The notes under the pieces are model-generated. The model did no database searches. It worked only from the letters and a program-made list of their open reading frames with translations, and was not told the DNA's origin. From NCBI GenBank assembly GCA_019235885.1, contig JAFAKB010000056.1, forward strand, positions 1 to 64,000: 64,000 nt of DNA, in the 5' to 3' direction. This stretch comes from Candidatus Eremiobacterota bacterium. GTDB taxonomy: Bacteria > Vulcanimicrobiota > Vulcanimicrobiia > Vulcanimicrobiales > Vulcanimicrobiaceae. The translations under genes and the position numbers were made by a program. This document shows positions 5,182 through 20,866 of this stretch, in pieces (positions within the stretch are counted from its first letter, which is position 1; each line of letters begins with the position of its first letter).

Positions 5182-6518
5182 GAGACGCTCGCGGCCGGCA
5201 CGACCGACGCGGCGGCGCGGCGGCGCTCGAACAGCCGCCGCGCCGCGACCTCGGCGACCGCGACGCCGACCAGCAGCCAGTACGCCGAGGCGACCTTCGG
5301 AAAGAAGAACAGATCGTCGAAGATCTGGTGCGAGGCGAGCGCGACGGTTGCGCCGAGCGCGCCGACGACGAGCGGACGCCGCACGCCGCTCCGCGCCAGC
5401 GTCACGATCGTCACCACGAACAGCGCGAGCGTGGTGGCGAACCCGACCAGTCCTTCTTCCGCCAAGCTCTGCAGATAGATGCTGTTCGCGTGCGTGCGCA
5501 CGCCGTTCAAACCGGTCTCGGGGAGATCGAGCTCGTAGTTGCCCGCGCCGACGCCGACGATTGGCGAGCTGCGCCACAGCTCGACCGCCGCGTGCCAGAG
5601 CTGCGAGCGGTTGGCGAGGTGATCGCCGGGCTGCGGCGTCTGGTCGAGCGAGAAGTATCCGGCCGGGACGCCGGCGCGCAGTGCGACGGCGGCGCCGAGC
5701 ACGACGACGAGCGCGACGACCGCGCCGAAGCGCAGCGCAACGCCGCGGAACGGGCGCAGCACCAGCAGCACGACGACGACGCCGAGCGCGACGCCGATGA
5801 TCCCCGAGCGCGAGATCGTCAGCAGATCGGTCAGCGCCGCGAGCGAGACGACGAAGACGAGCACGCGGTCGCGGTGGACGAGCGCGCGCGCGACGAGAAC
5901 CGGGATCGCGACGTCGAGGTAGCCGGCGAGCTGGTTCGGTCCTTCGAGCGCGCCGGCGATGCGCGGCACCGACCGGCCGTGCACGAACAGCCCGCTGTGC
6001 GCGCCGATCAGGTACTCGGCGAGCGCGGAGAAGCTCACCAGCACCACGGCAGCTTCGAGCATGCGCCAGAACGGGCGGTCGTCGGGATCGGTCGCGAACG
6101 CCGCTACCGCGCCGAGAAAGAGCAGCAGGTACTCGCCCTGCTTGAACGCTTCGCGCACCACCGCGCCGAGATGCTGCGCGTGCAGCGTGCTGAGCGCGAT
6201 CGCGACGAGCGTCGCGGCGAAGGCGGTGAGCATCGCCCGCACCGGAACGGTGCGAAACGCGGCGATGTCCGGGCGCGAGAACGCGAGCACGGCGAACATC
6301 CCGATCAAGCCGGCTTTGAGCGTCGTGATCGTCGTCGGCCCGACGTAGCGCGCCAAGTCGAACGGCGCGAGGACGAGGAGCGCCGCGACGCCGAGCGCCG
6401 GGCGCCGCCGCGTGAGCAGCGCGACGCCGATCGCGCACGCGAGGTAGACGAGCGCGCTCGGCAGGTCGACCGCCACGTGCGTCTCGTGACGCAGCGTGAC
6501 GGTCCAGGGGTGAAACAT
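5178..6518 (-). CDS. O-antigen ligase/polymerase family membrane protein (WaaL/Wzy-like)
   Basis: A 446-residue polytopic inner-membrane protein with about ten hydrophobic segments. It has the O-antigen ligase signature in the long periplasmic loop: RSQLWHAAVELWRSSPIVGVGAGNYE followed by HANSIYLQSLAEEGLVG, where the His is the usual catalytic residue. It joins undecaprenyl-linked polysaccharide to an acceptor or polymerises it. ATG at 6518 gives an immediate MFHPWT start and overlaps the upstream stop as ATGA; the ORF extends further upstream only as a shadow. Ligase and polymerase share the fold, so which reaction it performs is open. It sits between the unknown membrane protein and the multidomain glycosyltransferase in the same operon. 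Confidence 0.85.
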   Translation of the reverse strand: MFHPWTVTLRHETHVAVDLPSALVYLACAIGVALLTRRRPALGVAALLVLAPFDLARYVGPTTITTLKAGLIGMFAVLAFSRPDIAAFRTVPVRAMLTAFAATLVAIALSTLHAQHLGAVVREAFKQGEYLLLFLGAVAAFATDPDDRPFWRMLEAAVVLVSFSALAEYLIGAHSGLFVHGRSVPRIAGALEGPNQLAGYLDVAIPVLVARALVHRDRVLVFVVSLAALTDLLTISRSGIIGVALGVVVVLLVLRPFRGVALRFGAVVALVVVLGAAVALRAGVPAGYFSLDQTPQPGDHLANRSQLWHAAVELWRSSPIVGVGAGNYELDLPETGLNGVRTHANSIYLQSLAEEGLVGFATTLALFVVTIVTLARSGVRRPLVVGALGATVALASHQIFDDLFFFPKVASAYWLLVGVAVAEVAARRLFERRRAAASVVPAASVS

Positions 6519-8197
6519 CAACTCGGCCTTTCGACCTGCGTGCGGCGACGGTCCCCCGGCGGCGCCGCGACGACGGCAGGCTGCGGTTCGGCGGCGCTGC
6601 GAACGAGCGCGATTCCGACCGCGGTTGCGGCGAGCGGCACGAGCACCAGCATGAGGAGATCGAGCGAGGGCGCGACGCGGGCGGCGTCGGGAAGCGAGCC
6701 GGCGATCCACGTCACGACGAGATCGGCAAGCGCCAGCCCGGCGATCGTGTGCTGCAGCGGCGCCGGCAGCTCCGCGAGCGCAGCCCCCAGCACGACGAAC
6801 AGGATCAGCACCAGCGCGTACGCGCCGTGCGTGGTGACGGTCGCGCCGGGACCCCAGAGCGCGACGGACCAGAACGCGGTCGAGCAGAGCGCGAGAACGA
6901 GCAGCGCGCCCACGCTGCGCCGGGCGGTGCGGTCGGCGCGCCGCCACCACCACGGGAGCGCGAGCCAGCCCAGGTTCGCCACGCCGAGCGCGGCCGTGAC
7001 GTGCTCGCGCTCGCGCACTCGCCACACGTTGATCGGGCCGAGGGGCTCGCTCATCGTCGCCGCCTCCATCAGCGGAGCGGCCCCGAAGGCGGTCTGCACG
7101 TTCGCCAGCTTGTTGCGCACGATCTCGCTCGGCGGCGTGCGCGCGTACGCTTCCGCGATCGCGCGGCCGGCGGGACGCGGATCGACGGGGACGATCCCGG
7201 CCAGGTGCATCTTCAGCAACCGGTCTCCCGGCGGGTCGTAGAAGCGTTGATACGCTGCCCAGGGCACCAGCAGCACGACGCCTGACGTGACCGCGAGCGC
7301 AAGCGCACGATCGAGCCGAAGTCGCCGCGCCGCCGCGAGCAGCGCGAACGCGGGGAAGACGAAGAACACCGCGCCGCCGTGCGCGAGCAGCGCGAGCGCG
7401 GCGCAGATCCCTGCGCACGCAAAGCTGGCGACGCGGCCGGCGCGCGGTGCAGGCAGCGCGAAGACGAGCGCGCCGAGCGAGAACGCCGCCGCCAGCAGCT
7501 TCGGCCACGTGTAGACGGTGTTGTAGAGACAGTAGCCGGACAAGATCGCCAGCGCGAGCACCAGCGCGCGTCCGCGCGGCGAAAGGCCCGCGCGAACGCA
7601 CAGCAGCCAGGTCGCGGGCAGCCACGCCAGCTGCGCCACCGCGCCGGCGATCTCGTAGACGACGTCGGTGTACTGCGGCGCGAACGCGAGCGGCCGAATC
7701 AGCAGCTGTATCCCGGTCTGCAGCGGCGGCCGGTCGCTGCTGAGCCAGTCGCCGAACAGATGCCGCGGATCGAGCCCGAGGTACAGCCGCTCGGCGAAGA
7801 GCTGCGGGATGATGTTGTCGGGCGGGCGCAGCACGAAGAAGCGGTTCGCGGCCGGAATCCCGGTCGAGGGCAGGTACAGCACCGCCAGGTAGAACAGCCC
7901 GGTCAGAAACGTCAGCGCGAGCGGAAGCGCTTCCTCACGCGCGAACCCGCCGCGCGCAAGCAGCACCAGCGCGACGAGCGCGGCGGCGATCCACCCGACC
8001 GAGACCGCGCGCCCGGCCAGCGGATTCCACAGATAGATCCAAAAGGCCGCATATCCCGCCAGCGCCGTGATCGCGTACGCGACCAGCGGCGTCGCGGCGA
8101 GGTCGAAGTTCGACCGCCGCACGACCGCGCGCGCAACGGCGTACCCGGGCGCGAGCAGCAGCAGGAACTCCGTCGCGTACGCGACGGGCGCGATCAC
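6518..8197 (-). CDS. Polytopic membrane protein of the polysaccharide operon (GT-C-like, unassigned)
   Basis: About 560 residues with a dozen hydrophobic segments and a large loop after the first third. The loop between segments holds PPDNIIPQLFAERLYLG and SDRPPLQTGIQLL, a pattern resembling the first periplasmic loop of GT-C glycosyltransferases, which places Asp/Glu near the catalytic site. I cannot assign it to a named family. The start is uncertain: GTG at 8197 gives MIAPVAYATEFLLLL at the first membrane segment, and TTG at 8227 is an alternative six bases after the flippase stop codon. The stop overlaps the ligase start (ATGA). Its position between a flippase and a ligase suggests work on lipid-linked sugar, possibly as a polyprenyl-phosphate-sugar-dependent transferase. 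Confidence 0.72.
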   Translation of the reverse strand: MIAPVAYATEFLLLLAPGYAVARAVVRRSNFDLAATPLVAYAITALAGYAAFWIYLWNPLAGRAVSVGWIAAALVALVLLARGGFAREEALPLALTFLTGLFYLAVLYLPSTGIPAANRFFVLRPPDNIIPQLFAERLYLGLDPRHLFGDWLSSDRPPLQTGIQLLIRPLAFAPQYTDVVYEIAGAVAQLAWLPATWLLCVRAGLSPRGRALVLALAILSGYCLYNTVYTWPKLLAAAFSLGALVFALPAPRAGRVASFACAGICAALALLAHGGAVFFVFPAFALLAAARRLRLDRALALAVTSGVVLLVPWAAYQRFYDPPGDRLLKMHLAGIVPVDPRPAGRAIAEAYARTPPSEIVRNKLANVQTAFGAAPLMEAATMSEPLGPINVWRVREREHVTAALGVANLGWLALPWWWRRADRTARRSVGALLVLALCSTAFWSVALWGPGATVTTHGAYALVLILFVVLGAALAELPAPLQHTIAGLALADLVVTWIAGSLPDAARVAPSLDLLMLVLVPLAATAVGIALVRSAAEPQPAVVAAPPGDRRRTQVERPS

Positions 8198-8232: not shown

Positions 8233-9759
8233 TTACGGCAGCGGGACGAGATCGCGCGGGCGGCGGCGCAGCAGCAGGTCGATCGCGAGGTGCAGCTCTT
8301 CGGAGTCGACGACGCGCGCGAGCGCGATGAAGACGAACGCGCCGAACAGCAGGTGCTCGCCCAGGTTCGCGACGCGCGCGATCGTCGTCGGCGCCGGCGG
8401 GGTCCGGGTGATCTGCACGGCGGCGAGGGCGAACGCCATCACCGCGGAGCACGCGCCGACCTTCAGCAGCGAGACGGCGACCGTGCGCAAGTGAAAACCG
8501 CCCAGCACGCGCGAGGCGACGGCGACGTAGGCGATCGTCTGCAGCGTCTGCGAGACGGCGTTCGCCAGCAGCAGCCCGCGCGCGCCCAGCGAGGGCAGCC
8601 ACGCAACCGAGAGCAGCACGTTCAGCGCGACGGTCGCGACCGAGATCGCGATCGCGACGCGGACGACGCCGCAGGCGTACAGGCAGCGCGTCAGCACGAC
8701 GTTCGCAGCGAGCGCGACCAGGCCGACCGCCGCGAACGGCAGCAGCTGCGCGCACAGCACCGTCGCTTCGGGGGTGAACGCGCCGCGCTCGAAGAGCGTC
8801 TGCACGATCGGCCCGGCCAGCATGCACAGCCCCCAGGCCGAGGGCAGCGTCAGGAAGATCACCATCTGCAAGCCGGTCGCGACGCTGCGCCGCATCGCGA
8901 CGCGGTTCTGCTGCGCGAACTGCCCCGCGAAGAGCGGAAAGATCACCGTCGCGATCGCGGTCACGAAGATCTGCTGCGGAAAGCCGACGACCTTGACCGC
9001 GAAGTTCATCCCCGCGATCGTCCCTTCGCTCAGCCCCGAGGCGAAGAAGCGGTCGAAGAACAGCGCGATCTGCCCGGCCGCCGAGCCGATCGCGATCGGC
9101 CCGAGCACGTGCATCAGCCGCACCATCCCGGGATGGTACAGGTCGAACGCGAAGCGGAAGCGGCGCAGCGAGAAGAACGTCGGCAGCAGCACCAGCAGCG
9201 AGACGAACGCGCCGGCGAGCGCGCCGAAGACGAGCGCGAACGCGCCGTAGTGCGGCTGCGCGAACCACACCGCGACGATGATGCACAGGTTCGCGACGAA
9301 CCCTTGCAGCGCGGCCGCGCCGAAGCGGTGGTAGGCGTTGAGCAGCGAGCCGATCACGCCGGCCAGGCTGGTCGCGACGATCGTGGGCATCAGCCAGCGC
9401 GTCATCACCACCGCGGTGTGGACGTGCGCCGGCGAGAAGCGCGCGATCCGCGGCACGTACCACGGCGCGAGCCACGCGCCCAGCGCCGCGCACAGGCCGA
9501 GCAGTCCGATCAGCGCGACGATGACGGTCGAGGCGAGGTTCCACGCTTGGTCCTCGCGCTCGGTGTTGAGATAGTCGGAGAACAGCGGGACGAGCGCCGT
9601 GACGAGCGCGCCGTTGAAGACGCCGAACAGGATCACGGGAACGACGGACGCCGCGAGAAACGCGTCGAGCTCCCACGAGGTGCCGTAGAACTTCGCGTAC
9701 ACGACCTCGCGCACGAAGCCGAGGATCGTCGACGCGAGCGTCGCGCCCATGACCAGCAT
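8233..9759 (-). CDS. MurJ/MviN-type lipid-linked oligosaccharide flippase
   Basis: A MOP-superfamily flippase with about 14 membrane segments, 508 residues. Family marks: GFVREVVYAKFYGTSWELDAFLAA near the N-terminus, LFGVFNGALVTALVPLFS, and internal repeats of the two six-helix halves (ATVIFPLFAGQF, LCMLAGPIVQTLFERGAFT). It is MurJ-like in sequence, but its place between an initiating sugar transferase and a ligase argues that it exports the lipid-linked repeat unit of this polysaccharide; a genuine peptidoglycan lipid II flippase is the other possibility. Homologues usually have about 15 residues before this ATG (here RTPRRIARSTMLVM would be in frame), but no ATG, GTG or TTG lies there; an ATT or CTG start cannot be excluded. 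Confidence 0.86.
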   Translation of the reverse strand: MLVMGATLASTILGFVREVVYAKFYGTSWELDAFLAASVVPVILFGVFNGALVTALVPLFSDYLNTEREDQAWNLASTVIVALIGLLGLCAALGAWLAPWYVPRIARFSPAHVHTAVVMTRWLMPTIVATSLAGVIGSLLNAYHRFGAAALQGFVANLCIIVAVWFAQPHYGAFALVFGALAGAFVSLLVLLPTFFSLRRFRFAFDLYHPGMVRLMHVLGPIAIGSAAGQIALFFDRFFASGLSEGTIAGMNFAVKVVGFPQQIFVTAIATVIFPLFAGQFAQQNRVAMRRSVATGLQMVIFLTLPSAWGLCMLAGPIVQTLFERGAFTPEATVLCAQLLPFAAVGLVALAANVVLTRCLYACGVVRVAIAISVATVALNVLLSVAWLPSLGARGLLLANAVSQTLQTIAYVAVASRVLGGFHLRTVAVSLLKVGACSAVMAFALAAVQITRTPPAPTTIARVANLGEHLLFGAFVFIALARVVDSEELHLAIDLLLRRRPRDLVPLP

Positions 9760-9817: not shown

Positions 9818-10504
9818 TTAATGCGCTCCGACCCCGTGCAGCACGGCCGGAATCGTCTTCGCGACGATCGCCAGGTCGTACCACGGCGACCACGCGTCGA
9901 TGTAGGCGTTGTCGAGCGCCATCCACTCTTCGAACGAGAGGTGCGAGCGCCCGGAGATCTGCCACAGGCAGGTCACCCCCGGTTTCACCACGAGCCGGCG
10001 CAGCGCGTAGCCGTCGTAGTGCGCGACCTCTTCGGGCAGCGGCGGCCGCGGCCCGACGATCGCCATCTCGCCGAGCAGCACGTTGACGAAGTTCGGCAGC
10101 TCGTCGATCGAGGTGCGCCTCAGAAACGCGCCCAGCTTGTGCAGCCGCGGGTCGTCGCGCATCTTGAAGACCGGGCCGTCGGCTTCGTTGAAGCGCCGCA
10201 GCTCGGGGAGCATCGCGTGCGCGCCGCGGACCATCGTGCGCAGCTTGAGCATTCGGAACCGCCGGCCGCGCAGACCGACGCGGTCCTGGCGGTAGAACGG
10301 GTTTCCGCCGCTCACCAGCACGATCCCGAGCGCGGCCGCCAGCACCACCGGCGAGCTGAGCGCCAGGATCGCGAGCGCGAGGACGACGTCGAGCGCGCGC
10401 TTCGCCGGCGCGTACCAGCCCGGCCGGGCCGGCGCGGACGGCATCGGCACCCCGACCGGCAGGTCGGAGAGGTCGGGCGCGCCGGGCAGCTCGAGGGCGT
10501 TCAT
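9818..10504 (-). CDS. Undecaprenyl-phosphate sugar-1-phosphate transferase (initiating transferase)
   Basis: A 228-residue bacterial sugar transferase of the WcaJ/PglC monotopic phosphoglycosyltransferase family. A Pro-rich 30-residue N-terminus precedes the KRALDVVLALAILAL re-entrant membrane helix. Catalytic-core motifs follow: GNPFYRQDRVGLRGRRFRMLKLRTM, FKMRDDPRLHKLGAFLRRTSIDELPNFVNVL, MAIVGPRPPLPEEV and the KPGVTCLWQISGR end motif. The Asp-Glu in IDELPN corresponds to the catalytic pair of this family. It loads the first sugar phosphate onto undecaprenyl phosphate at the inner face of the membrane. It lacks the multi-spanning N-terminal domain of WbaP-like enzymes. ATGA overlap with deoB upstream. 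Confidence 0.92.
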   Translation of the reverse strand: MNALELPGAPDLSDLPVGVPMPSAPARPGWYAPAKRALDVVLALAILALSSPVVLAAALGIVLVSGGNPFYRQDRVGLRGRRFRMLKLRTMVRGAHAMLPELRRFNEADGPVFKMRDDPRLHKLGAFLRRTSIDELPNFVNVLLGEMAIVGPRPPLPEEVAHYDGYALRRLVVKPGVTCLWQISGRSHLSFEEWMALDNAYIDAWSPWYDLAIVAKTIPAVLHGVGAH

Positions 10505-11631
10505 GTCAGCGCCGGACCGAGGATCGCTTCGATCCGCTCGCCCACGTAGCCCAAGCCTTCGATCGTGCCCAGCTCGCGGCCCGAGCCGCCGCCGGCGTAC
10601 TCAAGGTACGGGACGTGCTCGCGGGTGTGATCGCTGCCGGGCTGGGTCGGGTCGCAGCCGTGGTCGGCGGTGAAGATCAGCGCGTCGCCGGGCCGCACGC
10701 GCGCGAAGAGCTCCGGCAGGCGCGCGTCGAGCCGGGCGAGGGCCTCACCATAGCCTCGCACGTCTCTCCGGTGGCCGTACTTGGTATCGAAGTCGTTCAG
10801 GTTGACGAACACCAGGCCGTGATCCGTTGCATCCGCGAGCTCGAGTGCGCGGTCGACCGCTTCGCCGTTGTCGGCGACGCGGACGGACGACGCGATCCCG
10901 TGACCGCTGTAGATGTCACAAATCTTCCCGACTGCGTGCACGGGTACACCCGCGCGCTCCAGCCGGTCGAGCACCGTCGGCGGTGGAGGAATGGCGTAGT
11001 CCCTCCGGTTCGGCGTTCGGCTGAAGCTCCCCGGCGCGCCGGTGAAGGGCCGGGCGATCACCCGGTTCACCTCGTGGGGCGGGGCCAGCATCGCCCGCGC
11101 CCGCTCGCACCATTCGTACAGGGTCGCCAGCGGAACGATCTCCTCGTGCGCGGCGACCTGAAAGACCGAGTCGGCCGAGGTGTACAGGATCGGCCGGCCG
11201 GTCCGCATGTGCTCCTCGCCGAGCTCGGCGATGATCTCGGTCCCCGAGGCGGTCGTGTTCCCCAGCGGCGGCTTCCCGGCGATCGCGGTGAAGCGCTCGA
11301 CGACCTCGGGCGGAAAACCGTCCGGATAGGTCGGAAACGGGACCTCGGTGATCACGCCGGCCATCTCCCAGTGGCCGGTGATCGTGTCCTTGCCCTTTGA
11401 GCGTTCTTTAAGCCGGCCGACGGCGGCGAGCGGAGCCGCGCTCCGCGAAAGACCGCGCACGACGGTGACGTGACCCAGGCCGAGCTGCTCGAAGTTCGGC
11501 AGCCGGAGCCCGCCCAGCCGCTCGGCGACGTTTCCGATCGTGTTCGCGTTCGACGAGTCGTGGTAGACGTTCGCATCGGGGAGGGCGCCGACGCCGGCCG
11601 AGTCCATCACGAATGCGAGAATGCGCGGCAT
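10501..11631 (-). CDS. deoB: Phosphopentomutase
   Basis: Interconverts ribose/deoxyribose 1-phosphate and 5-phosphate in nucleoside salvage. The alkaline-phosphatase-fold metal motifs are present across 376 residues: FVMDSAGVGALPDA at the N-terminus, DTITGHWEMAG with the phospho-acceptor threonine, GKICDIYSGHGI, VNLNDFD and FTADHGCDP...SDHTREHVP. Length is as usual for the family. It is the first gene of the minus-strand run that continues into polysaccharide genes, with its stop overlapping the sugar transferase start (ATGA). Its natural partners, a pyrimidine phosphorylase (21.8 kb) and purine phosphorylase (52.1 kb), are elsewhere in the window. The divergent gene begins 68 bases away, so the promoters must lie in or near this gap. 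Confidence 0.96.
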   Translation of the reverse strand: MPRILAFVMDSAGVGALPDANVYHDSSNANTIGNVAERLGGLRLPNFEQLGLGHVTVVRGLSRSAAPLAAVGRLKERSKGKDTITGHWEMAGVITEVPFPTYPDGFPPEVVERFTAIAGKPPLGNTTASGTEIIAELGEEHMRTGRPILYTSADSVFQVAAHEEIVPLATLYEWCERARAMLAPPHEVNRVIARPFTGAPGSFSRTPNRRDYAIPPPPTVLDRLERAGVPVHAVGKICDIYSGHGIASSVRVADNGEAVDRALELADATDHGLVFVNLNDFDTKYGHRRDVRGYGEALARLDARLPELFARVRPGDALIFTADHGCDPTQPGSDHTREHVPYLEYAGGGSGRELGTIEGLGYVGERIEAILGPALT

Positions 11632-11699: not shown

Positions 11700-13469
11700 A
11701 TGCGCTTCCCGGTCTTGATCGCGCTGGCGGCGATGCTCGTCGCGAGCGCGACGGCGCGCGCCGTCGCCTCGCCGCCCACCAGCCTCGACGTCTCCGCGAG
11801 CGGCGTCGACTTCTTCTACAACCGCTTCATCGTCACGGCCGACGGCAACGTGCGGGTCCGCCTCTCCGACGGCACGATCGTGAGCGGACAGACCTTCACG
11901 ATGGACCTCAAGCTCAACCGCTACCTCGTCGCCGGCGACGTGCACCTGGACGGCCCGAAGGTGCACGAGCGCGGCGCAGCGTTCGCCGGCTATCCCGATC
12001 TCGACCGCTCGTACTTCCTCCCCGCCGAGGGCGCGCCGGAGCGCTGGACGTACTACGGCCTGGACTGGAGCGACAAGCACCCCGGCCGCGAGCAGCCGGG
12101 TGACGCGTTCTACTTCCCCGACCTCACCGGCGAGCGCCCGTACATCTACGCCGCCGGCGCGCGGATCGTCCCGAAGACGAACGTGCTCTTCGACCAGCCG
12201 CGCGTCTACACGGCCGGGGCGTACCTCCCGCTCCCGCGCTACGTCGTCACCTTCTCGGCGAACTCGCACTTCTACGAGAACGGCTTCGCCGGGGCGCGCG
12301 CCGACGTCGCGCTGCCGTTCAACGGCTCGGAGCACTCGCTCACCGCGCTGCACGTGCGCAACGACCAGTTCAACGGGACGTATCTCGCGATCGACCAGCA
12401 CTTCGTGTGGCCGAACGACTGGATCGTCGCCTCGATCGATCCGCTCACGCAGGAGCAGCGCCAGTACAACCTGATCGGCTACAAGCGCTTCTCGCCGAAG
12501 TTCGAAGCGCGCGCGTTCCTGCAGGAGTCGGCCGCGTCGCCCGGACTCATCAACCGGCCGATCAACGCGGCCGGGTTCACCGAGATTCAGCTGAACGCCG
12601 GGCTCTCGCGCTCGGGACTCAGCTTCACGCAGGACAACTACTGGCAGCAGCTGCTGGGGTACCGGCCCGGCGCGAACGACACCGTGCTGACGGCGAACTA
12701 CGATCCGCGCTGGCGCGAGCACCCGAGCAACGCGACGCTCGCGTGGACCGGCTTCGAGAACCGCATCTTCAAGTTCGCGCCGCTGCTGTTCCGGCTGCGC
12801 AGCGGGATCGGCAACGCGCACGACGTGTACGGCGAAGGCGGCTATCCCAACTTGCAGCCGGGCCCGCGCGAACTGTGGTACCACTACACCGGCGCGACGC
12901 TCTACACCGCGCCGGTCCGGCTCAAGAACAACTTCTCGCTGACCGCGTCGTTCGACAAGCAGCGGACCTGGTACTCGGAGCCGCATCAGGTCGACGTCGC
13001 CGACACGCGCTTCTCGCTGGCGCGCGTCTTCGAGCGCCAGCACGTCAACGCGTTCGTCGCCTACGAGACGCGCACGACCGGCGACTACTGGGGCGCGCAG
13101 CAGCTTGCCGCCTACCCGCCGGGAAACCCCAACCCCGCTTGCACCGTCTCGGGCGGCGACGTCTGCGCGACGCCGTTCGGCTTCATCGGCGGACAGAACG
13201 CCTTCCGCGGCTTCGCGATCTCGCGCGGGGCGACCGGTTCGGTGGTCTACACGCCGACCGCGTACTTCGGGCTGAACCTGACGCTCGCGCACTTCACCGA
13301 CTTCCCGGCCCCGGTCCCCGGCCTGTACGGCCAGCCGCCCTGGCAGTTCACGGGTGATCTGCGCATGCGGCTGTCGAAACAGCTGTTGGTCGACGTGACC
13401 CGCCAGTACTATTTCAACTTCGCCAACGAACGGTGGACGCCGCAGCTCGGGGTCCAGTTCTCGCCGTGA
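11700..13469 (+). CDS. LptD-like outer-membrane protein, copy 1
   Basis: A secreted protein of 589 residues: signal peptide FPVLIALAAMLVASATARAVA, an N-terminal OstA/LptA-like strand region (DGNVRVRLSDGTIVSG...LNRYLVAGDVHLDG, about residues 40-95), then many alternating aromatic strands (YYGLDW, RYVVTFSANSHFYENGF, FVAYETRTTGDYWGAQQ) and a terminal strand ERWTPQLGVQFSP. This is the layout of LptD-type LPS-transport barrels, although shorter than E. coli LptD and ending in Pro, not Phe. It overlaps the next gene (TGATG). The 14.4 kb gene is a paralogue. ATG at 11700 was chosen because the signal peptide follows directly; GTG at 11688 is in frame. LptD identity is inferred, a related OMP is possible. 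Confidence 0.72.
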   Translation: MRFPVLIALAAMLVASATARAVASPPTSLDVSASGVDFFYNRFIVTADGNVRVRLSDGTIVSGQTFTMDLKLNRYLVAGDVHLDGPKVHERGAAFAGYPDLDRSYFLPAEGAPERWTYYGLDWSDKHPGREQPGDAFYFPDLTGERPYIYAAGARIVPKTNVLFDQPRVYTAGAYLPLPRYVVTFSANSHFYENGFAGARADVALPFNGSEHSLTALHVRNDQFNGTYLAIDQHFVWPNDWIVASIDPLTQEQRQYNLIGYKRFSPKFEARAFLQESAASPGLINRPINAAGFTEIQLNAGLSRSGLSFTQDNYWQQLLGYRPGANDTVLTANYDPRWREHPSNATLAWTGFENRIFKFAPLLFRLRSGIGNAHDVYGEGGYPNLQPGPRELWYHYTGATLYTAPVRLKNNFSLTASFDKQRTWYSEPHQVDVADTRFSLARVFERQHVNAFVAYETRTTGDYWGAQQLAAYPPGNPNPACTVSGGDVCATPFGFIGGQNAFRGFAISRGATGSVVYTPTAYFGLNLTLAHFTDFPAPVPGLYGQPPWQFTGDLRMRLSKQLLVDVTRQYYFNFANERWTPQLGVQFSP

Positions 13470-14350
13470 TGATGCGCCTGCTTTCGATCCTGCTCGCCGC
13501 CGCCGCGCTGACCGCGCTCGCGCTCCCGTCGTTCGCGCAAGCGCCCGCGCCGGCGGCCGCGCCCGGAACGGTGGTGCGCTTCACCGGCCAGCTGCTCGAC
13601 GTGCGCAACGGCTACGTCTACTTCACCACCGGCGATGCGTTCAAGCTGGCGCCCGCGCCGAAGCTCGCCGACTACGACACCGGCGGGCCGACGAAGCTGC
13701 AGCCGCGCGCGAAGGTGTTCGCGCGCGCCGTCGTGGACCCGGCCACCAAGCAGGTCGTCGAGCTCGACCTGACGACGCGCCGGCTGCCGCCGGACGTCGC
13801 GTACGCGCAGGTGCAGCAATACGCCGCGACCGGCGCGACGACGGTGCGCGCGCCCGAGATCGTCGGCCAGAACATCACCGGGCGCGAGGTCGCGGTCGAG
13901 TTCGTCGTGACGGTTCCGCCGACGACGCCGCTGAACGCCGAGGTCTACATCAGCACCGACTACAGCAACTGGGATCCGCGCGCGATCAAGATGGACCGCA
14001 TCGACGGGCAGCGCTACCGCGCGGTGCGGCGGCTCGCTTCCGGGACGAAGTTCGCGTTCCGCGTCACGCGCGGCTCGTGGAACGCGACCGAGCTGGGTCA
14101 GAACGGTCTGCAGCCAACGCCGCACCCGTACTTCACCAAGGAAGTCGACGCGCAGTCGGTCCCGGTGACCGTCTACGCGTGGTCGGACGACCGCGCGAGC
14201 GCGCCGCAAGCCGCGCAGCCGGGCGCGATCCCGACCCCGTTCAACCCCAACCCGTTCCCGCCGGGCGGGCTCTACCCGCCCTCGCGCGCGACCCCGCCGG
14301 GCGGGTTCCCGACGCCGCGGCCGGGCCAGCCGAACAAGCCGCCGCGCTGA
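13469..14350 (+). CDS. Secreted CBM20-like domain protein, copy 1
   Basis: A 293-residue exported protein with signal peptide MRLLSILLAAAALTALALPSFAQA. Residues about 30-125 form a small beta domain (VVRFTGQLLDVRNGYVYF). About 140-225 holds a CBM20/starch-binding-like E-set domain: EVYISTDYSNWDPRAIKMDR, then GTKFAFRVTRGSWNATE. The C-terminus (from about 240) is a Pro/Gly/Asn tail (NPNPFPPGGLYPPSR) resembling a flexible surface linker. Start ATG at 13469 overlaps the outer-membrane protein stop, so the two are translationally coupled. The gene at 15962 has the same domain and same position behind a related OMP. Role unknown; a periplasmic or surface partner of the barrel, perhaps binding glycan, is an inference from the domain and the pairing. 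Confidence 0.75.
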   Translation: MMRLLSILLAAAALTALALPSFAQAPAPAAAPGTVVRFTGQLLDVRNGYVYFTTGDAFKLAPAPKLADYDTGGPTKLQPRAKVFARAVVDPATKQVVELDLTTRRLPPDVAYAQVQQYAATGATTVRAPEIVGQNITGREVAVEFVVTVPPTTPLNAEVYISTDYSNWDPRAIKMDRIDGQRYRAVRRLASGTKFAFRVTRGSWNATELGQNGLQPTPHPYFTKEVDAQSVPVTVYAWSDDRASAPQAAQPGAIPTPFNPNPFPPGGLYPPSRATPPGGFPTPRPGQPNKPPR

Positions 14351-14354
14351 GCGC

Positions 14355-15965
14355 ATGCGCCGCACCGCCGCCGCGTTCGCCGTAGCACTCTGCGCCGCCG
14401 CGTGGCCGGGCGCGGCGAGCGCGCGCGCGGCGGCGACGCTCGAGGGTGGTTCGGTCGTCTTCTTCTCCGACACGCTGGCGCTGTTCGCGCGCGACGGCGC
14501 GGCGCTCGCACTCGCGGACGGCACGCGCGCGCACGCCGACGCCGCATACCTCGACCTCAAGACCGATCGCGCCGTGCTGGCGGGCCACGCGCGGATCGCG
14601 CGCGGCGCGGCGAACGCGAGCGCGGACGCGATCGTCATCGAGCTGGACACGAGCCGCGTCGACTTGCTCGACGCGCGGAACGCTACGGTGACGCAGACCA
14701 CGCGCGCGCTCGATGCGGCGAAGCCGGCCGAGTTCGACGCGCAGCGCTTCACGTTCCCCGACGTCGAGGACCGCGGCGCGTTCATCCGCGCGAAGCACGC
14801 GGCGATCGTCCCGCACGCCGACGTGCGCCTTTCGCCGGCGACGTTCCCGAACTCGGTCGGCAGCGTGCCGGTGCCCTCGTATCTCTACACCTACGCGACC
14901 GGCGCGGGCTTCGCCTCGAGCGCGCTCTCGGGCGCGACGTTCGACCAGCCGTACGGCTTGTGGGGATCGCCGAACTCGCTGACCGCGCTGCACGCGCGCT
15001 GGGAAAGCGGCCCCGGCGCAGCGTTGGCATTGCAACAGCAGTTCGTCTCCGGCGATGACGCGTTCGCCGCGCTTTCGTTCGACGCGCCGCTGCACGGCTA
15101 CACGGTGCGCGGCTTCAACGGCTACCGCCGGCTCGGCGCGCGCTACACCGCGGTCGCCGACGCGACCGGGACGATCTTCGGCACCGTGATGCACGGCGGC
15201 CTGACCGCCGCGTTCGGCGCGGCCGGCGCGCGGCTCGACTACACGCGCACCTCGGGCGGTTTCTCGAAGCTCGACTTCGCGCTGCGCACGCCGGACCGCC
15301 CGCTCTTCGGCGGCGCGACGTGGCGCTTGACCGGCGATCTCGGCTACGACGCGCAGCGCGGCGGGCTGTTGACGCAGCTTCCCGACGCGCGCAGCTACGC
15401 GACGGTGTGGCGGCACGGTCTCGACTTCTCGGTCGCGACGCCGGTGGTGCGCGCGCCGCTCGGGACGACGCTCTCTTCGACGTTCGACGTGCAGCGCACC
15501 TGGTATGCGTTTCCGCACCACTTCGACCAGTTCGGCGCGACGGCGTTCGCGACCAAGACGTTCTCGCGCAAGGTCTCGCTGTTCGCCGGCTATCAGGGGA
15601 CGTGGAACGCCGACGTCTACCCGAACGCGCAAGCGATCTTCTATCCCTCGCCGAGCACGCCGATCCTCACCCCCGACGGCACGCCGTACTACGGCTACGC
15701 CGCGTTCACGGGCGCAAAAACGTTCCGCTTGCAGAACCTCACGCTGCAAGTGACGCCGGACGCGAACACCGCGTACCGCCTCACGCTCACGCACACCGCG
15801 GACTTCCCGCAGTTCAACGGCTACGGACGCCCGCAGTGGGAGATCGGCGGCGACGTGCGCTTCCGGCCCTTCCCGAACATCGGGCTCGACGTCGGCCGCG
15901 CCTACGACTTCGCTTGGGGCGGAACGCGCTGGGTGCCGCGCTGGAGCTTCGCGATCACGCCGTGA
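14355..15965 (+). CDS. LptD-like outer-membrane protein, copy 2
   Basis: A 536-residue paralogue of the 11.7 kb protein. Signal peptide RRTAAAFAVALCAAAWPGAASARA; OstA/LptA-like N-terminal strands (ALALADGTRAHADAAYLDLK, AVLAGHARIARG, about residues 45-85); then barrel-like strands with the same landmarks as copy 1: TFDVQRTWYAFPHHFDQF versus copy 1 TASFDKQRTWYSEPHQVDV, LTLTHTADFPQFNGYGRPQWEIGGDVRFR versus LTLAHFTDFPAPVPGLYGQPPWQFTGDLRMR, and a final strand GTRWVPRWSFAITP. It starts four bases after the copy-1 CBM20-like gene and its stop overlaps the next start as GTGA. Function is inferred to be LPS/lipid export; divergence between copies suggests different cargo. Confidence 0.72.
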   Translation: MRRTAAAFAVALCAAAWPGAASARAAATLEGGSVVFFSDTLALFARDGAALALADGTRAHADAAYLDLKTDRAVLAGHARIARGAANASADAIVIELDTSRVDLLDARNATVTQTTRALDAAKPAEFDAQRFTFPDVEDRGAFIRAKHAAIVPHADVRLSPATFPNSVGSVPVPSYLYTYATGAGFASSALSGATFDQPYGLWGSPNSLTALHARWESGPGAALALQQQFVSGDDAFAALSFDAPLHGYTVRGFNGYRRLGARYTAVADATGTIFGTVMHGGLTAAFGAAGARLDYTRTSGGFSKLDFALRTPDRPLFGGATWRLTGDLGYDAQRGGLLTQLPDARSYATVWRHGLDFSVATPVVRAPLGTTLSSTFDVQRTWYAFPHHFDQFGATAFATKTFSRKVSLFAGYQGTWNADVYPNAQAIFYPSPSTPILTPDGTPYYGYAAFTGAKTFRLQNLTLQVTPDANTAYRLTLTHTADFPQFNGYGRPQWEIGGDVRFRPFPNIGLDVGRAYDFAWGGTRWVPRWSFAITP

Positions 15966-16555
15966 CGCACGCGCTGCTGCTCGCGGCCGCGGCCGCGTCG
16001 CTCTTCCGCATCGTGCCGCTGGGGTGCAGCGGCGACCGGCTCGCCGTCGCGGGCGCGGGCGTGCTGCGGCTCGCCGACGGCGTCTCGTGCGCCGCGTTCG
16101 TCCCCGGGCGTGCGATCGCGATCGCGCTCGACGGCGACAACCGCGCCACACCGCAGAAGCTCACCGCCGACGCGTTGCCGGCCGCGAAGATTCCGCGCGC
16201 GGCGTTCCTGCTCGCGCCGGGGGCCGAGCAGGACGCCGACGAGTCGCAGCTCGTCAGCTCGACGATCGACGTGTTCGTGCCGCCGCGCACGCCGCCCGGC
16301 GACGACGTCTACCTCAGCACCGAGCGCAGCGGCTGGTCGCCGAGCGAGATCCGCATGGACCGCGTCGACGCGCGGCACTTTCGCTTGACGCTGAAGCTGC
16401 ACCGCGGCGCGCGGCTGGCGTTTCGCGTCACGCGCGGCTCGTACGGGACGACCGAGCGCGACGCTTCGCGCGCGCTTCCGCCGGCGCACGTCGCGACCGG
16501 CGAACCGGACGCGCACGTCGTCGTGAACGTCCCGGCCTGGGCCGACATCGATTAG
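15962..16555 (+). CDS. Secreted CBM20-like domain protein, copy 2
   Basis: A 197-residue paralogue of the 13.5 kb gene, starting with GTG in a GTGA overlap with the OMP stop. A short hydrophobic N-terminus (THALLLAAAAASLFRIVPLG) may be a signal peptide or anchor. The C-terminal half is the E-set/CBM20-like domain, DDVYLSTERSGWSPSEIRMDR and GARLAFRVTRGSYGTTERD, which aligns with copy 1 EVYISTDYSNWDPRAIKMDR and GTKFAFRVTRGSWNATE. It lacks copy 1's Pro-rich C-terminal tail. Such domains occur in alpha-glucan-binding proteins and beside esterases; ligand unknown here. Confidence 0.72.
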   Translation: MTHALLLAAAAASLFRIVPLGCSGDRLAVAGAGVLRLADGVSCAAFVPGRAIAIALDGDNRATPQKLTADALPAAKIPRAAFLLAPGAEQDADESQLVSSTIDVFVPPRTPPGDDVYLSTERSGWSPSEIRMDRVDARHFRLTLKLHRGARLAFRVTRGSYGTTERDASRALPPAHVATGEPDAHVVVNVPAWADID

Positions 16556-16595: not shown

Positions 16596-18890
16596 GTGCT
16601 GTGGATCGGGATTCTGTTTCAAGAAGCTTCGCTGCTGGCGATCGTCGTGCCGGCGCTGCTGCTGCGCATCTCGCCCGCCGACCACACCGCGATGCTGGCG
16701 AACCTGGCCACGCTGGTCGGTGCGGCGTTCGTGCTGACGCCGCCGCTCGCCGGAGCGCTCTCCGACCGCGCGCGGCGGCGCGGCGGCGACCGCAGGCGCG
16801 AGACCGCGGTCGCGCTCGCGATCGACGTCGTCGCACTCGCCGGGATGGGCTTCGCGACCTCGGTCGGCGCGCTGGGCTTCGCGCTCGTCGCCGCGACGGT
16901 CGCGCTGACCGCGGCGCAGACGATCTACCAAGTGCTGCTGCCGGAAGTCGTGCCGCGCGCGGTGTGGGGGACGGCGGCCGGCGTGCGCGGAGCGATGACG
17001 CTGATCGGCACCGTGCTCGGCTTGGCGTGCGCGGCGCTGCTCCCACCGCAGCAGGCGCTCTTCGCGAGCGCGCTGACGATCGCGCTCGTCGCGAGCTCGC
17101 TCTTCGCGATCCCGAACCCGCCCGCGGCGCCGCCGCCGCTCGCGCGCGCGATCGTGCGCGACAACCATGACCTTGCCGTAACGCTCGTCGCGCGCGGGTG
17201 GATCGTGCTGGGGCTGACGCTGCTGAACACGTACGTGCTGTACTTCTTCTCCGACGTGCTCGGCGTGAAGGACGCTTCGCTGGGAACGGGGATGGTCGCC
17301 GGCGCGGCGCTGCTCGGCGCGATCGTCTCCAGCGTGTGGGCCGGAACGCTTTCCGACAAAGTCGATCGCCGGCTCGTCGTCACGCTGTCGGGGATTCCGA
17401 TGACGCTCGCCGCGCTCGGCTTCGCGCTGCATCCCGACGCGCGCTGGATCTTCGCCTACGCGGCATTGTTCGGGCTGGGCTACGGCGGCGTGTTCTCGGT
17501 GGGCTGGGCGCTCGCGCTCGACGCGATCCCCGCGCTGGGCGACGTGGCGCGCGATCTCGGCGTGTGGGGGACGCTCTCCGGCTTGCCGCTGATCTTCGCG
17601 CCGAAGCTCGGCGCGTGGGTGATCGCGCACGGCGCGACGCCCGCGCAAGGCTATCGCTGGCTGTTCGCGCTCGCCGGCGCATCGTTCGCGATCGGTTCGC
17701 TCACCGTGCTCCGCGTCGGGCGCAAAGGCGCCGGGTCGCTCTGGCAGACGCTGCTCGTCGCGTTGACGACCGCGATCCGCCAGCCGCTGATCGCGCTGAG
17801 ATTCCGCGTGCGCCAGTGGGGACGTTTGCCGCTGCGCCGTGGGCCGACAGTGCTCATCGCGAACCATCAGCACGAGGACGAGTCCGAGATCGTCGTCGAG
17901 CGAGCGTTCGTGCAGTCGCTCTTCCGGCCGCTGTTCACCGCCTCGTCACGCCGGATGTACGAGCGCGGCTTCTTCGCGACGCGCATGCCGTGGCTCGGGT
18001 TCATGCGCAACGTGAACGCGGGGCCGCTGTTCTTCGGGCTGGGAATGCTGCCGCTCGAGAACGAGCTCTCCGCGCGGCCCCTGCGCAGCATCGCGGGCGA
18101 CGTGCGCGCGCGGCACGGCGACCTCGCGCTCGAGCTCGTCTTTCGCGGCGAGGCGCGTGCGGCGATACCTCCGGACGCGCGCACGCTTGACGACCTGCTG
18201 CTGCCGCGGCATTTCGCGGCCGGCGAAACGCGCGTGCGGTTGTCGTACGTGCTCGAGCCGTACCGCGCGGAGCTGCTCGCCGCGCTGCGCGCCGGCGTCG
18301 ACGAGGACGTGGCGCGCATCGTCGGCGTCGTGCGGCGGGGCGCGACGTTCTTCGTCACGCCGGAAGGCTTCTACAGCACCGACGGCCGCATGCGCCCGCT
18401 CAAAGGAATCGTCGACCACTTGCTGCGGGTCGCGACGCCCTGGTTCGCCGCGATCGCCTTCGACCCGTTCCGCGGCCAGCGGCTTTCGATGCTCTACCGC
18501 ATCGTGCGCCCGGCCGATCCCGACGATCTGAGCACCTCGCTCGCGGCGGCGCGGCCGGTCACGACCAGCGCGCTGCTAGCGACGTGGCTGCTCGCCGTCG
18601 GCTTGCCGTTCGACGCGCGCGAAGCCGCCGACGGCGTCGTGCGCCTGCGCGACGCGCTCCCGCCGGGAGCGTTCACCGATCCGGAGCTCGCGCGCGACGC
18701 GGACGGCTGCGTGAACGACGCGCTCGACGGCGCAACGCGCCGCGGCGTCCTGGCGCGCGACGGCGCGCGCTATGAACTGGCCGCACGGCGCACCGACGCG
18801 CGCTTTCCCGGCGTCGCCGACGTCGTCGCCTATCAAGCCGCATTTTTTGAACAGACGATCGCGGCGCTGCGCCGGCTCAGCGAGCGCTAG
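16596..18890 (+). CDS. MFS transporter fused to an acyltransferase-like domain
   Basis: A 764-residue two-part protein. Residues 1-375 are a major-facilitator permease with about 12 hydrophobic segments; ALSDRARRRGGDRRR is the cytoplasmic loop-2-3 motif and SDKVDRRLVV its repeat. From about 400 the protein is soluble and resembles PlsC/LPLAT acyltransferases: TVLIANHQHEDESEIVV (421 on), where the expected HX4D is altered, and a PEGFYSTDGRMR block near 588 that resembles the FPEG motif. The layout recalls LplT-Aas lysophospholipid flippase-acyltransferase fusions. GTG at 16596 is used; ATG alternatives are absent nearby. It lies 40 bases after the OMP/CBM20 cassette and may join it. The altered catalytic box lowers confidence that it still acylates. 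Confidence 0.75.
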   Translation: MLWIGILFQEASLLAIVVPALLLRISPADHTAMLANLATLVGAAFVLTPPLAGALSDRARRRGGDRRRETAVALAIDVVALAGMGFATSVGALGFALVAATVALTAAQTIYQVLLPEVVPRAVWGTAAGVRGAMTLIGTVLGLACAALLPPQQALFASALTIALVASSLFAIPNPPAAPPPLARAIVRDNHDLAVTLVARGWIVLGLTLLNTYVLYFFSDVLGVKDASLGTGMVAGAALLGAIVSSVWAGTLSDKVDRRLVVTLSGIPMTLAALGFALHPDARWIFAYAALFGLGYGGVFSVGWALALDAIPALGDVARDLGVWGTLSGLPLIFAPKLGAWVIAHGATPAQGYRWLFALAGASFAIGSLTVLRVGRKGAGSLWQTLLVALTTAIRQPLIALRFRVRQWGRLPLRRGPTVLIANHQHEDESEIVVERAFVQSLFRPLFTASSRRMYERGFFATRMPWLGFMRNVNAGPLFFGLGMLPLENELSARPLRSIAGDVRARHGDLALELVFRGEARAAIPPDARTLDDLLLPRHFAAGETRVRLSYVLEPYRAELLAALRAGVDEDVARIVGVVRRGATFFVTPEGFYSTDGRMRPLKGIVDHLLRVATPWFAAIAFDPFRGQRLSMLYRIVRPADPDDLSTSLAAARPVTTSALLATWLLAVGLPFDAREAADGVVRLRDALPPGAFTDPELARDADGCVNDALDGATRRGVLARDGARYELAARRTDARFPGVADVVAYQAAFFEQTIAALRRLSER

Positions 18891-19837: not shown

Positions 19838-20866
19838 GTGGTCTCCACTGTGCGCGAGCTGCCGGTTCGGCGAGGCGCCGATGCGACGCTCAGCATCGTC
19901 GTTCCCCTCTTCAACGAGGCGGACAACGTCGACGAGCTGCTGCGGCGCATTGCGAACGTCGTGCGCGGGCTGAGCGATCCGCCGGCCGCCTACGAAGTGA
20001 TCCTGGTCGACGACGGCAGCCGCGATCGGACCCTGGAGAAGCTGCTCGCCGCCGCGCACGACGATCCGCACCTGCGCGTCATCTCGCTCTCGCGCAACTT
20101 CGGCCACCAGATCGCCGCGACCGCCGGGCTGGACGCCGCGCGCGGCGACGCCGTCGTTCTGATGGACGGCGACCTGCAAGACCCGCCCGAATTGATCGAC
20201 GACTTTCTCGCCAAGTTCCGCGAAGGGTACGACGTCGTCTTCGCGACGCGCCGCCGGCGCGCCGGCGAGAGCCGCTTCAAGCTGTTCACCGCGGCGCTCT
20301 TCTACCGCGTCATCCGGCGGCTCACCAACGTCTCGATCCCGGTCGACACGGGCGACTTCCGCTTGATGAGCCGGCGCGTCGTCGAGGCGTTGCGCGACTC
20401 CCGCGAGCGGCACCGCTTCATCCGCGGCCTGGTCTCGTGGGTCGGGTTCAAGCAGACCGGGATCTCGTACGACCGCGCCGAGCGCCACTCCGGCAGCTCG
20501 AAGTATCCGGTCTCGAAGATGCTCAAGTTCGCGCTCGACGGGATCACCGCGTTCAGCGAGATCCCGCTGCGGCTCGCGACCTGGTTCGGGTTCGTCGTGA
20601 GCGTCTTCGCGTTTCTGGTCGGCCTGTACGAGGTCGCGCTGCGCATCTTCACGGGCTACAACTTGCCGGGCTACACCTCGACGATCGTCGCGATCCTGTT
20701 CCTCGGCGGCGTGCAGCTGATCACGATCGGGATCCTCGGCGAGTACGTCGGCCGCATCTACGACGAGATCAAGGGCCGCCCGCTCTACCTGGTCGCGGAG
20801 AACGTCGGGGCCGGGCTCGACGCCGAGCCGGACTCGTTGCCGAGCACCGTCCCGCTCACCAGGTAG
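19838..20866 (+). CDS. GT2 polyprenyl-phosphate glycosyltransferase (GtrB/ArnC-like)
   Basis: Transfers a sugar from a nucleotide donor to undecaprenyl phosphate at the inner membrane. The 342-residue protein has the GT2 core LSIVVPLFNEADNVDELL, ILVDDGSRDRT, SRNFGHQIAATAGLDAA, LMDGDLQDPPELI (the DxD-like metal site), GDFRLMSRRVV and RHRFIRGLVSWVGF. Two C-terminal membrane helices follow (LATWFGFVVSVFAFLVGL and VAILFLGGVQLITIGILGEYVGRIYDEIKGRP). GTG at 19838 is preferred because AGGA lies about five bases upstream; GTG at 19805 is in frame. Its last 82 bases are antisense to the 3' end of hldD. The product would supply lipid-linked sugar to a GT-C enzyme such as the one at 23153. Confidence 0.92.
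   Translation: MVSTVRELPVRRGADATLSIVVPLFNEADNVDELLRRIANVVRGLSDPPAAYEVILVDDGSRDRTLEKLLAAAHDDPHLRVISLSRNFGHQIAATAGLDAARGDAVVLMDGDLQDPPELIDDFLAKFREGYDVVFATRRRRAGESRFKLFTAALFYRVIRRLTNVSIPVDTGDFRLMSRRVVEALRDSRERHRFIRGLVSWVGFKQTGISYDRAERHSGSSKYPVSKMLKFALDGITAFSEIPLRLATWFGFVVSVFAFLVGLYEVALRIFTGYNLPGYTSTIVAILFLGGVQLITIGILGEYVGRIYDEIKGRPLYLVAENVGAGLDAEPDSLPSTVPLTR

Follow-up and report, generated by a model that had tools for sequence, protein, structure and literature searches.

Paired genes for LptD-like outer-membrane proteins and CBM20-fold partners in Eremiobacterota

We analyzed a stretch of 64,000 nucleotides (here called the window; contig JAFAKB010000056.1 of assembly GCA_019235885.1, positions 1 to 64,000) from Candidatus Eremiobacterota bacterium, a soil bacterium of the phylum Eremiobacterota. 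Four successive genes on the plus strand, spanning 11700-16555, form two pairs, OMP1-CBMa and OMP2-CBMb, in which a gene for an outer-membrane protein (OMP) is followed by a gene for a secreted partner with a CBM20-like domain. The two pairs are homologous, the first is widely conserved, and both might serve the export of a polysaccharide or glycolipid.

Two pairs of barrel and partner genes

The genes and their parts are as follows.

11700-13469, plus strand: OMP1, outer-membrane protein of 589 amino acids with signal peptide and LptD-like fold (AlphaFold2, Foldseek)
11784-12251, plus strand: OMP1 residues 29-184, OstA/LptA-type periplasmic jellyroll region (secondary structure of the model, LptD fold matches)
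12300-13460, plus strand: OMP1 residues 201-587, beta-barrel of about 19 long strands (DSSP strand list)
13469-14350, plus strand: CBMa, secreted partner of 293 amino acids with signal peptide and no lipobox, overlapping the OMP1 stop
13574-13774, plus strand: CBMa residues 36-102, small N-terminal beta domain of five strands (AlphaFold2)
13886-14170, plus strand: CBMa residues 140-234, C-terminal CBM20-fold domain with the block VYxSTxxSxWxPxxIxMDR (AlphaFold2, Foldseek, weak Pfam CBM_20)
14201-14347, plus strand: proline-rich C-terminal tail of CBMa (PTPFNPNPFP...), kept in kind among relatives (alignment A2)
14355-15965, plus strand: OMP2, OMP1 paralog of 536 amino acids, whose OstA segment matches LptA in the PDB
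15962-16555, plus strand: CBMb, CBMa paralog of 197 amino acids without the proline-rich tail, with a GTGA overlap with the OMP2 stop

A preliminary description of this DNA, made from its letters, had given the coordinates, order and orientation of all four genes exactly. Its landmarks recur letter for letter (FDKQRTWYSEPHQVDV in OMP1, DVQRTWYAFPHHFDQF in OMP2), and the block that it considered common to both partners fits CBMa as well as CBMb. The stop-start overlaps that it reported exist inside each pair, where both partner genes can start at a GTGA and CBMa alternatively at an ATG that shares one base with the OMP1 stop; the pairs themselves are set apart by a gap of 4 bases. Since a start codon in the partner frame lies at -4 or -1 from the OMP stop in about 64 of 70 related pairs, translational coupling of the OMP and CBM genes is suggested.

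OMP1 and OMP2 are homologous from end to end (27% identity over 558 columns, E 1e-35; profile-profile comparison, 532 aligned columns, E 8e-82), and CBMa and CBMb are alike in the C-terminal domain only (46% identity over 94 residues, E 2e-21). In the OMP tree, the OMP1 proteins of all three families formed one clade, separate from OMP2 and from a third subfamily (Shimodaira-Hasegawa-like approximate likelihood ratio test [SH-aLRT], 98). The CBM tree repeated this split, with CBMa of the whole class set apart from CBMb. Both were quick trees with SH-aLRT as the only measure of support, in which neither several deep forks nor the placement of OMP2 from family f2 are firm. From the likeness of the two trees, the most likely course is that both genes of the pair were duplicated together, earlier than the split between the families of the order, and that many genera then lost OMP2-CBMb, which a minority retains. 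A recent tandem duplication is ruled out, given the low identity of the paralogs and a split that predates these families. Thus, the duplicated cassette put forward in the preliminary description is real as a set of paired homologous units, but it is ancient and not a fresh repeat.

OMP1 was found in 92 of 103 genomes of the same order and the CBM family in 91 of 103; OMP1-CBMa is spread across the whole order and is also found in f3, a sister family within the class. A CBM gene lies directly downstream of OMP1 in 58 of 60 loci and of OMP2 in 12 of 12 loci. Complete genomes carry one or two CBM genes, located at the OMP1 and OMP2 places, so the CBM proteins do not occur mostly without OMP neighbors, the outcome that would have spoken against the proposed pairing. 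In a sample of the phylum, the OMP family was also present in f3, and two weak matches were the only ones outside the class. When genomes from 84,980 species were scanned for a single conserved OMP1 motif, 59 loci were found, almost all of them in records titled Eremiobacterota or with related names; given this one query, more distant relatives may exist elsewhere. Two of these loci (L082, L083) are titled Rhodospirillales bacterium, a doubtful assignment in which the public names are probably wrong.

Solitary OMP genes comprise 11 copies of the third subfamily in f3 and one copy in f1 (L188). The third subfamily, which is not accompanied by a CBM gene, occupies a separate locus in f3 (L175, L177, L179, L182, L184, L185, L187, L189, L190, L192, L193), flanked at L175 and L182 by an aminotransferase-looking gene (about 410 amino acids) and an epimerase-looking gene (about 350 amino acids). 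In one genus group (L093, L100, L102, L103, L120), the called OMP1 frames measure about 810-860 amino acids, with an apparent N-terminal extension, and some of these extended frames weakly match an LptD family profile (17-24 bits).

Folds of the barrels and their partners

The AlphaFold2 model of OMP1, built with 63 sequences (predicted local distance difference test [pLDDT] 88, predicted template-modeling score [pTM] 0.77), consists of a signal helix, a beta jellyroll up to about residue 184 and then the long strands of the barrel. In a Foldseek search of the PDB with this model, the first 15 places were all taken by LptD (E 3.3e-13 to 2.5e-9); pilus ushers and TonB receptors ranked behind LptD, and PelBC appeared at rank 44. 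Independently, the OMP2 profile (A3) matched LptA chains in the PDB (E 6.6e-5). The LptD-like architecture of an OstA jellyroll followed by a barrel, which had been proposed from sequence, is thus borne out by the structure prediction for OMP1. In sequence comparisons, there was no significant hhalign match of the OMPs to the single E. coli LptD and no match of the combined OMP profile (A5) to the PDB, and the OMPs scored below all Pfam and NCBIfam LptD models. The LptD C-terminal domain PF04453 was not detected in the OMPs, but this model also misses the LptD candidate of the organism described below. Among 63 OMPs, no alignment column reached 30% Cys.

In the AlphaFold2 model of CBMa (57 sequences, pLDDT 83), the small N-terminal beta domain is followed by a sandwich domain and by the proline-rich tail, which is modeled with low confidence. 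The sandwich domain gave 37 Foldseek matches in the PDB at E <= 0.001, to CBM20-bearing enzymes and CBM20 domains, with a template-modeling (TM) score of 0.71 by target length to the CBM20 domain of STBD1 (8x8k_C). Pfam CBM_20 was the most frequent weak match in the CBM family. As for tryptophan glycan-binding sites of the CBM20 kind, W168 of CBMa hardly varies in alignment A6, but several CBMb proteins have F or Y there. Neither the OMP nor the CBM proteins have a Pfam match to Poly_export (PF02563).

The partners had been proposed to be a new LptE-like or glycan-binding class, and of these alternatives the glycan-binding one fares better. The fold matches of the CBMa model are CBM20 domains and not LptE; by eye, CBMa has a Sec-type N-terminus without the lipobox of LptE, and the short hydrophobic start of CBMb includes PLGC, which is no standard lipobox. 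LptE orthologs are hard to find outside Gammaproteobacteria (PMC10353723).

The LptD candidate and the gene neighborhood

The cell wall of Vulcanimicrobium alpinus, the first member of the phylum to be isolated, is Gram-negative, with lipopolysaccharide (LPS) covering the outer membrane, and four unidentified glycolipids are among the polar lipids of this species (PMC9758169). WPS-2 genomes have been noted to contain BamA and genes for LPS synthesis (PMC6664022). We found a separate LptD candidate, P0005, in the genome to which the window belongs.

L032:4186-6729 (contig G000:C80), minus strand: P0005, LptD candidate of 847 amino acids (LptF/G linkage, disulfide cysteines)

P0005 overlaps an LptF/G gene and was found in 61 of 61 genomes. 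In its family, Cys293 (100%) and Cys791 (94%) take the aligned positions of C173 and C725 in E. coli LptD, and the surrounding motifs correspond as well. PF04453 misses P0005 and gave nothing over cut-off in 26 genomes, and the family matches OstA_2 weakly (2 of 18 relatives). Universality, LptF/G linkage and aligned cysteines make P0005 the best candidate for the LPS translocon of the organism. Its N-terminal region is long and rich in Pro and Ser. Contig C88 carries LpxC, LptB, LptC, a second LptF/G and an O-antigen ligase. On contig G000:C28, MreB is directly followed by a tandem pair of LptA-like proteins of the LptC/OstA type (L031:5503-6183 and 6189-6971, plus strand). The LptA-like proteins P0006 and P0008 are 51% identical, and their copy number varies in the order.

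To take the OMPs for the missing LptD of this organism was tempting, since PF04453 found nothing over cut-off, but P0005 led us to reject this. The view that the OMP-CBM pairs represent its LptD-LptE translocon could not be upheld either, given a separate universal candidate and a neighborhood of polysaccharide rather than Lpt genes. Another reading, which takes up the LptE-like partner class suggested in the preliminary description, is that the OMPs are auxiliary LPS translocons that share the one Lpt bridge, with the CBM proteins as LptE-like plugs or factors for assembly. The LptD fold matches of OMP1 and its obligate partner agree with this idea, and the duplication of the LptA type in the genus (P0006/P0008) could feed more than one LptD-like barrel. 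However, a canonical LptD candidate was present in every genome tested, the OMPs adjoin polysaccharide genes and lack conserved cysteines, their partner has the fold of CBM20 and an ordinary signal peptide and is no lipoprotein, and the copy number of LptA-like genes is not consistent with that of the OMPs. We therefore consider an auxiliary LPS translocon rather unlikely.

The neighbors of the pairs in the window include the following.

5178-6518, minus strand: Wzy_C O-antigen ligase/polymerase family protein (Pfam)
8233-9759, minus strand: MurJ-family flippase, kept near OMP1 in the order (Pfam, gene order)
9818-10504, minus strand: initiating sugar transferase (Bac_transf PF02397, Pfam E 7e-60), beside OMP1 in two arrangements
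10501-11631, minus strand: DeoB-type phosphopentomutase (metalloenzyme), divergent and kept beside OMP1 (Pfam, gene order)
19850-20866, plus strand: glycosyltransferase family 2 (DPM1-like) protein, kept downstream of the pairs (Pfam, gene order)

Across the order, the genes divergent from OMP1 encode DeoB, Bac_transf and the MurJ-family flippase, often with Wzy_C further on, and the DPM1-like glycosyltransferase lies downstream of the pairs, often together with a Wzy_C-like protein. In the sister family f3, the order DeoB, sugar transferase, (Wzy_C-like), OMP1, CBM is found on a single strand, with overlapping starts in several loci. It is mainly because the association survives this rearrangement, in two orientations, that we link OMP1-CBM to polysaccharide or glycolipid synthesis. 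Directly after the pairs, in the genus of the window, follows a gene for a 764-amino-acid protein (16596-18890, plus strand); one half of it belongs to the major facilitator superfamily, and the C-terminal half, about 400 amino acids long, has no Pfam match and is acyltransferase-like (NHQHEDE motif). Wza-type Poly_export genes were present in 27 of 41 sampled genomes, away from the pairs, and the 14 sampled genomes devoid of them do have OMP1. The pair is thus independent of Wza, and a dependence on Wza is ruled out by this patchy occurrence elsewhere in the genomes.

CBM20 domains usually bind alpha-glucans. This raises the possibility that barrel and CBM20-like protein form an uptake channel, loosely SusCD-like, for alpha-glucans or other oligosaccharides, and the best that a sequence search of the PDB with the CBM domain profile returned was a chance-level match to a dextran-binding surface glycan-binding protein (E 0.48). 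Against such a role, the OstA/LptA periplasmic domain is a fold for handling lipid and LPS, the Pfam-annotated neighbors in the window are biosynthetic and include no glycoside hydrolase or TonB-linked genes, and near-universal presence in the order would be unusual for a nutrient receptor; we judge uptake quite improbable. Sandwich folds of the CBM kind can also bind proteins, and the CBM protein might then be a protein-protein interaction module of a barrel with other cargo, such as lipoproteins or general outer-membrane lipids. The LptD homolog of Borrelia, for which such cargo in place of LPS was proposed, sets a precedent (PMC10353723, PMC11784454). The stable linkage of the pairs to sugar transferase and Wzy_C genes across families makes other cargo improbable, if somewhat less so than uptake.

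Proposed function and comparison with known systems

The reading that we prefer, and to which we give an even chance, is that OMP1 and OMP2 are LptD-like translocons that carry a polysaccharide or glycolipid across the outer membrane, each with an obligate CBM20-fold partner. The adjacent cluster, comprising the initiating sugar transferase, MurJ-type flippase, Wzy_C ligase/polymerase and glycosyltransferases, would make a surface polysaccharide or glycolipid, and OMP1 and OMP2 would not be the LPS translocon itself. From the periplasm, the glycan or glycolipid would reach the OstA jellyroll of OMP1 and then enter or cross the smaller barrel of about 19 strands. Translation of the CBM protein would keep step with that of its barrel, and the protein would be secreted to the periplasm or to the surface, where its CBM20-fold domain might hold the glycan chain as a receptor, plug or retention factor. 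OMP2-CBMb, as an old duplicate of the whole unit, would probably have another glycan specificity.

Several observations weigh against this reading. TM-scores between OMP1 and LptD stay low (0.28-0.40), which barrels of 19 and 26 strands would lead one to expect. The hhalign comparisons of the OMPs with the family of the organism's LptD candidate were not significant (probability 4% and 19%), so that homology to LptD has to be argued from the fold and the OstA segment only; common descent of the OMPs and LptD is plausible, not proven. The conserved neighborhood may partly reflect general synteny, since DeoB is kept beside OMP1 though it has no obvious role in glycan export. On the side of the partner, the Pfam CBM_20 matches are weak, with a best E of 0.0022 for whole proteins (3 of 35) and 0.011 for domains (9 of 37), and CBMa and CBMb of the window gave no CBM_20 match at E <= 1; moreover, CBM20 is a versatile fold. 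A CBM gene stands beside solitary OMP copies in 0 of 12 loci. Sequences and models show the pairing, the stop-start overlaps, the fold classes, a separate LptD candidate, the gene context and the old co-duplication, whereas the substrate, the direction of transport and the contact between OMP and CBM protein are our inference.

It is tempting to extend the translocon reading and to speculate that Eremiobacterota possess a second, LPS-independent trans-envelope glycan exporter, in which an OstA-domain mini-LptD, evolved apart from LptD, is Wzy-linked, has a CBM20-fold partner replacing LptE and was duplicated as a unit in some genera. We advance this only tentatively. LptD, partnered by LptE, is usually viewed as the single way out through the outer membrane for LPS, and here a deep-branching diderm phylum combines a universal LptD candidate with one or two further LptD-like barrels near polysaccharide genes, whose partner is another one and may bind glycans. 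If the OMPs do export a polysaccharide or glycolipid, the design of OstA domain and barrel would be a general module and not an LPS-only machine, and the cargo of LptD-like proteins outside Proteobacteria would become directly testable. Our search of open-access papers found no description of these OMP or CBM proteins, and the OMP-CBM unit may be an undescribed route for placing glycans on the cell surface.

Among known systems, the CBM20 domains of STBD1, cyclodextrin glycosyltransferase and glucoamylase share the fold of the C-terminal domain of CBMa, but unlike in CBM20 enzymes, the CBM partners are not attached to an enzyme and have an extra N-terminal beta domain and, in CBMa, the proline-rich tail. 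AlgE, PgaA, PelB and Wza resemble the OMPs in proposed job and gene context. The AlgE barrel, with 18 strands, is closer to OMP1 in size, and none of these four proteins is known to have an OstA domain or a CBM20 partner; genes of the Wza type are also patchy in the order and not near the OMP-CBM pairs. BB0838 of Borrelia burgdorferi is likewise LptD-type, without cysteines and without LptE, and non-LPS cargo has been proposed for it (PMC10353723, PMC11784454); disulfide cysteines are thus not universal in LptD (PMC10353723). It differs in its larger barrel (31 strands predicted) and in being part of a nearly full Lpt set, and no paralogous CBM-paired barrels have been described there. Like LptD, the OMPs have an OstA/LptA jellyroll at the N-terminus, a barrel in the outer membrane behind it and one dedicated small partner, and the best PDB fold matches of OMP1, to LptD, are full-length. 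They are set apart from LptD by about 19 long strands in OMP1 as against 26, by the absence of conserved disulfide cysteines, by their position away from Lpt genes and their coexistence with an LptD candidate, and by a partner of CBM20 fold in place of LptE.

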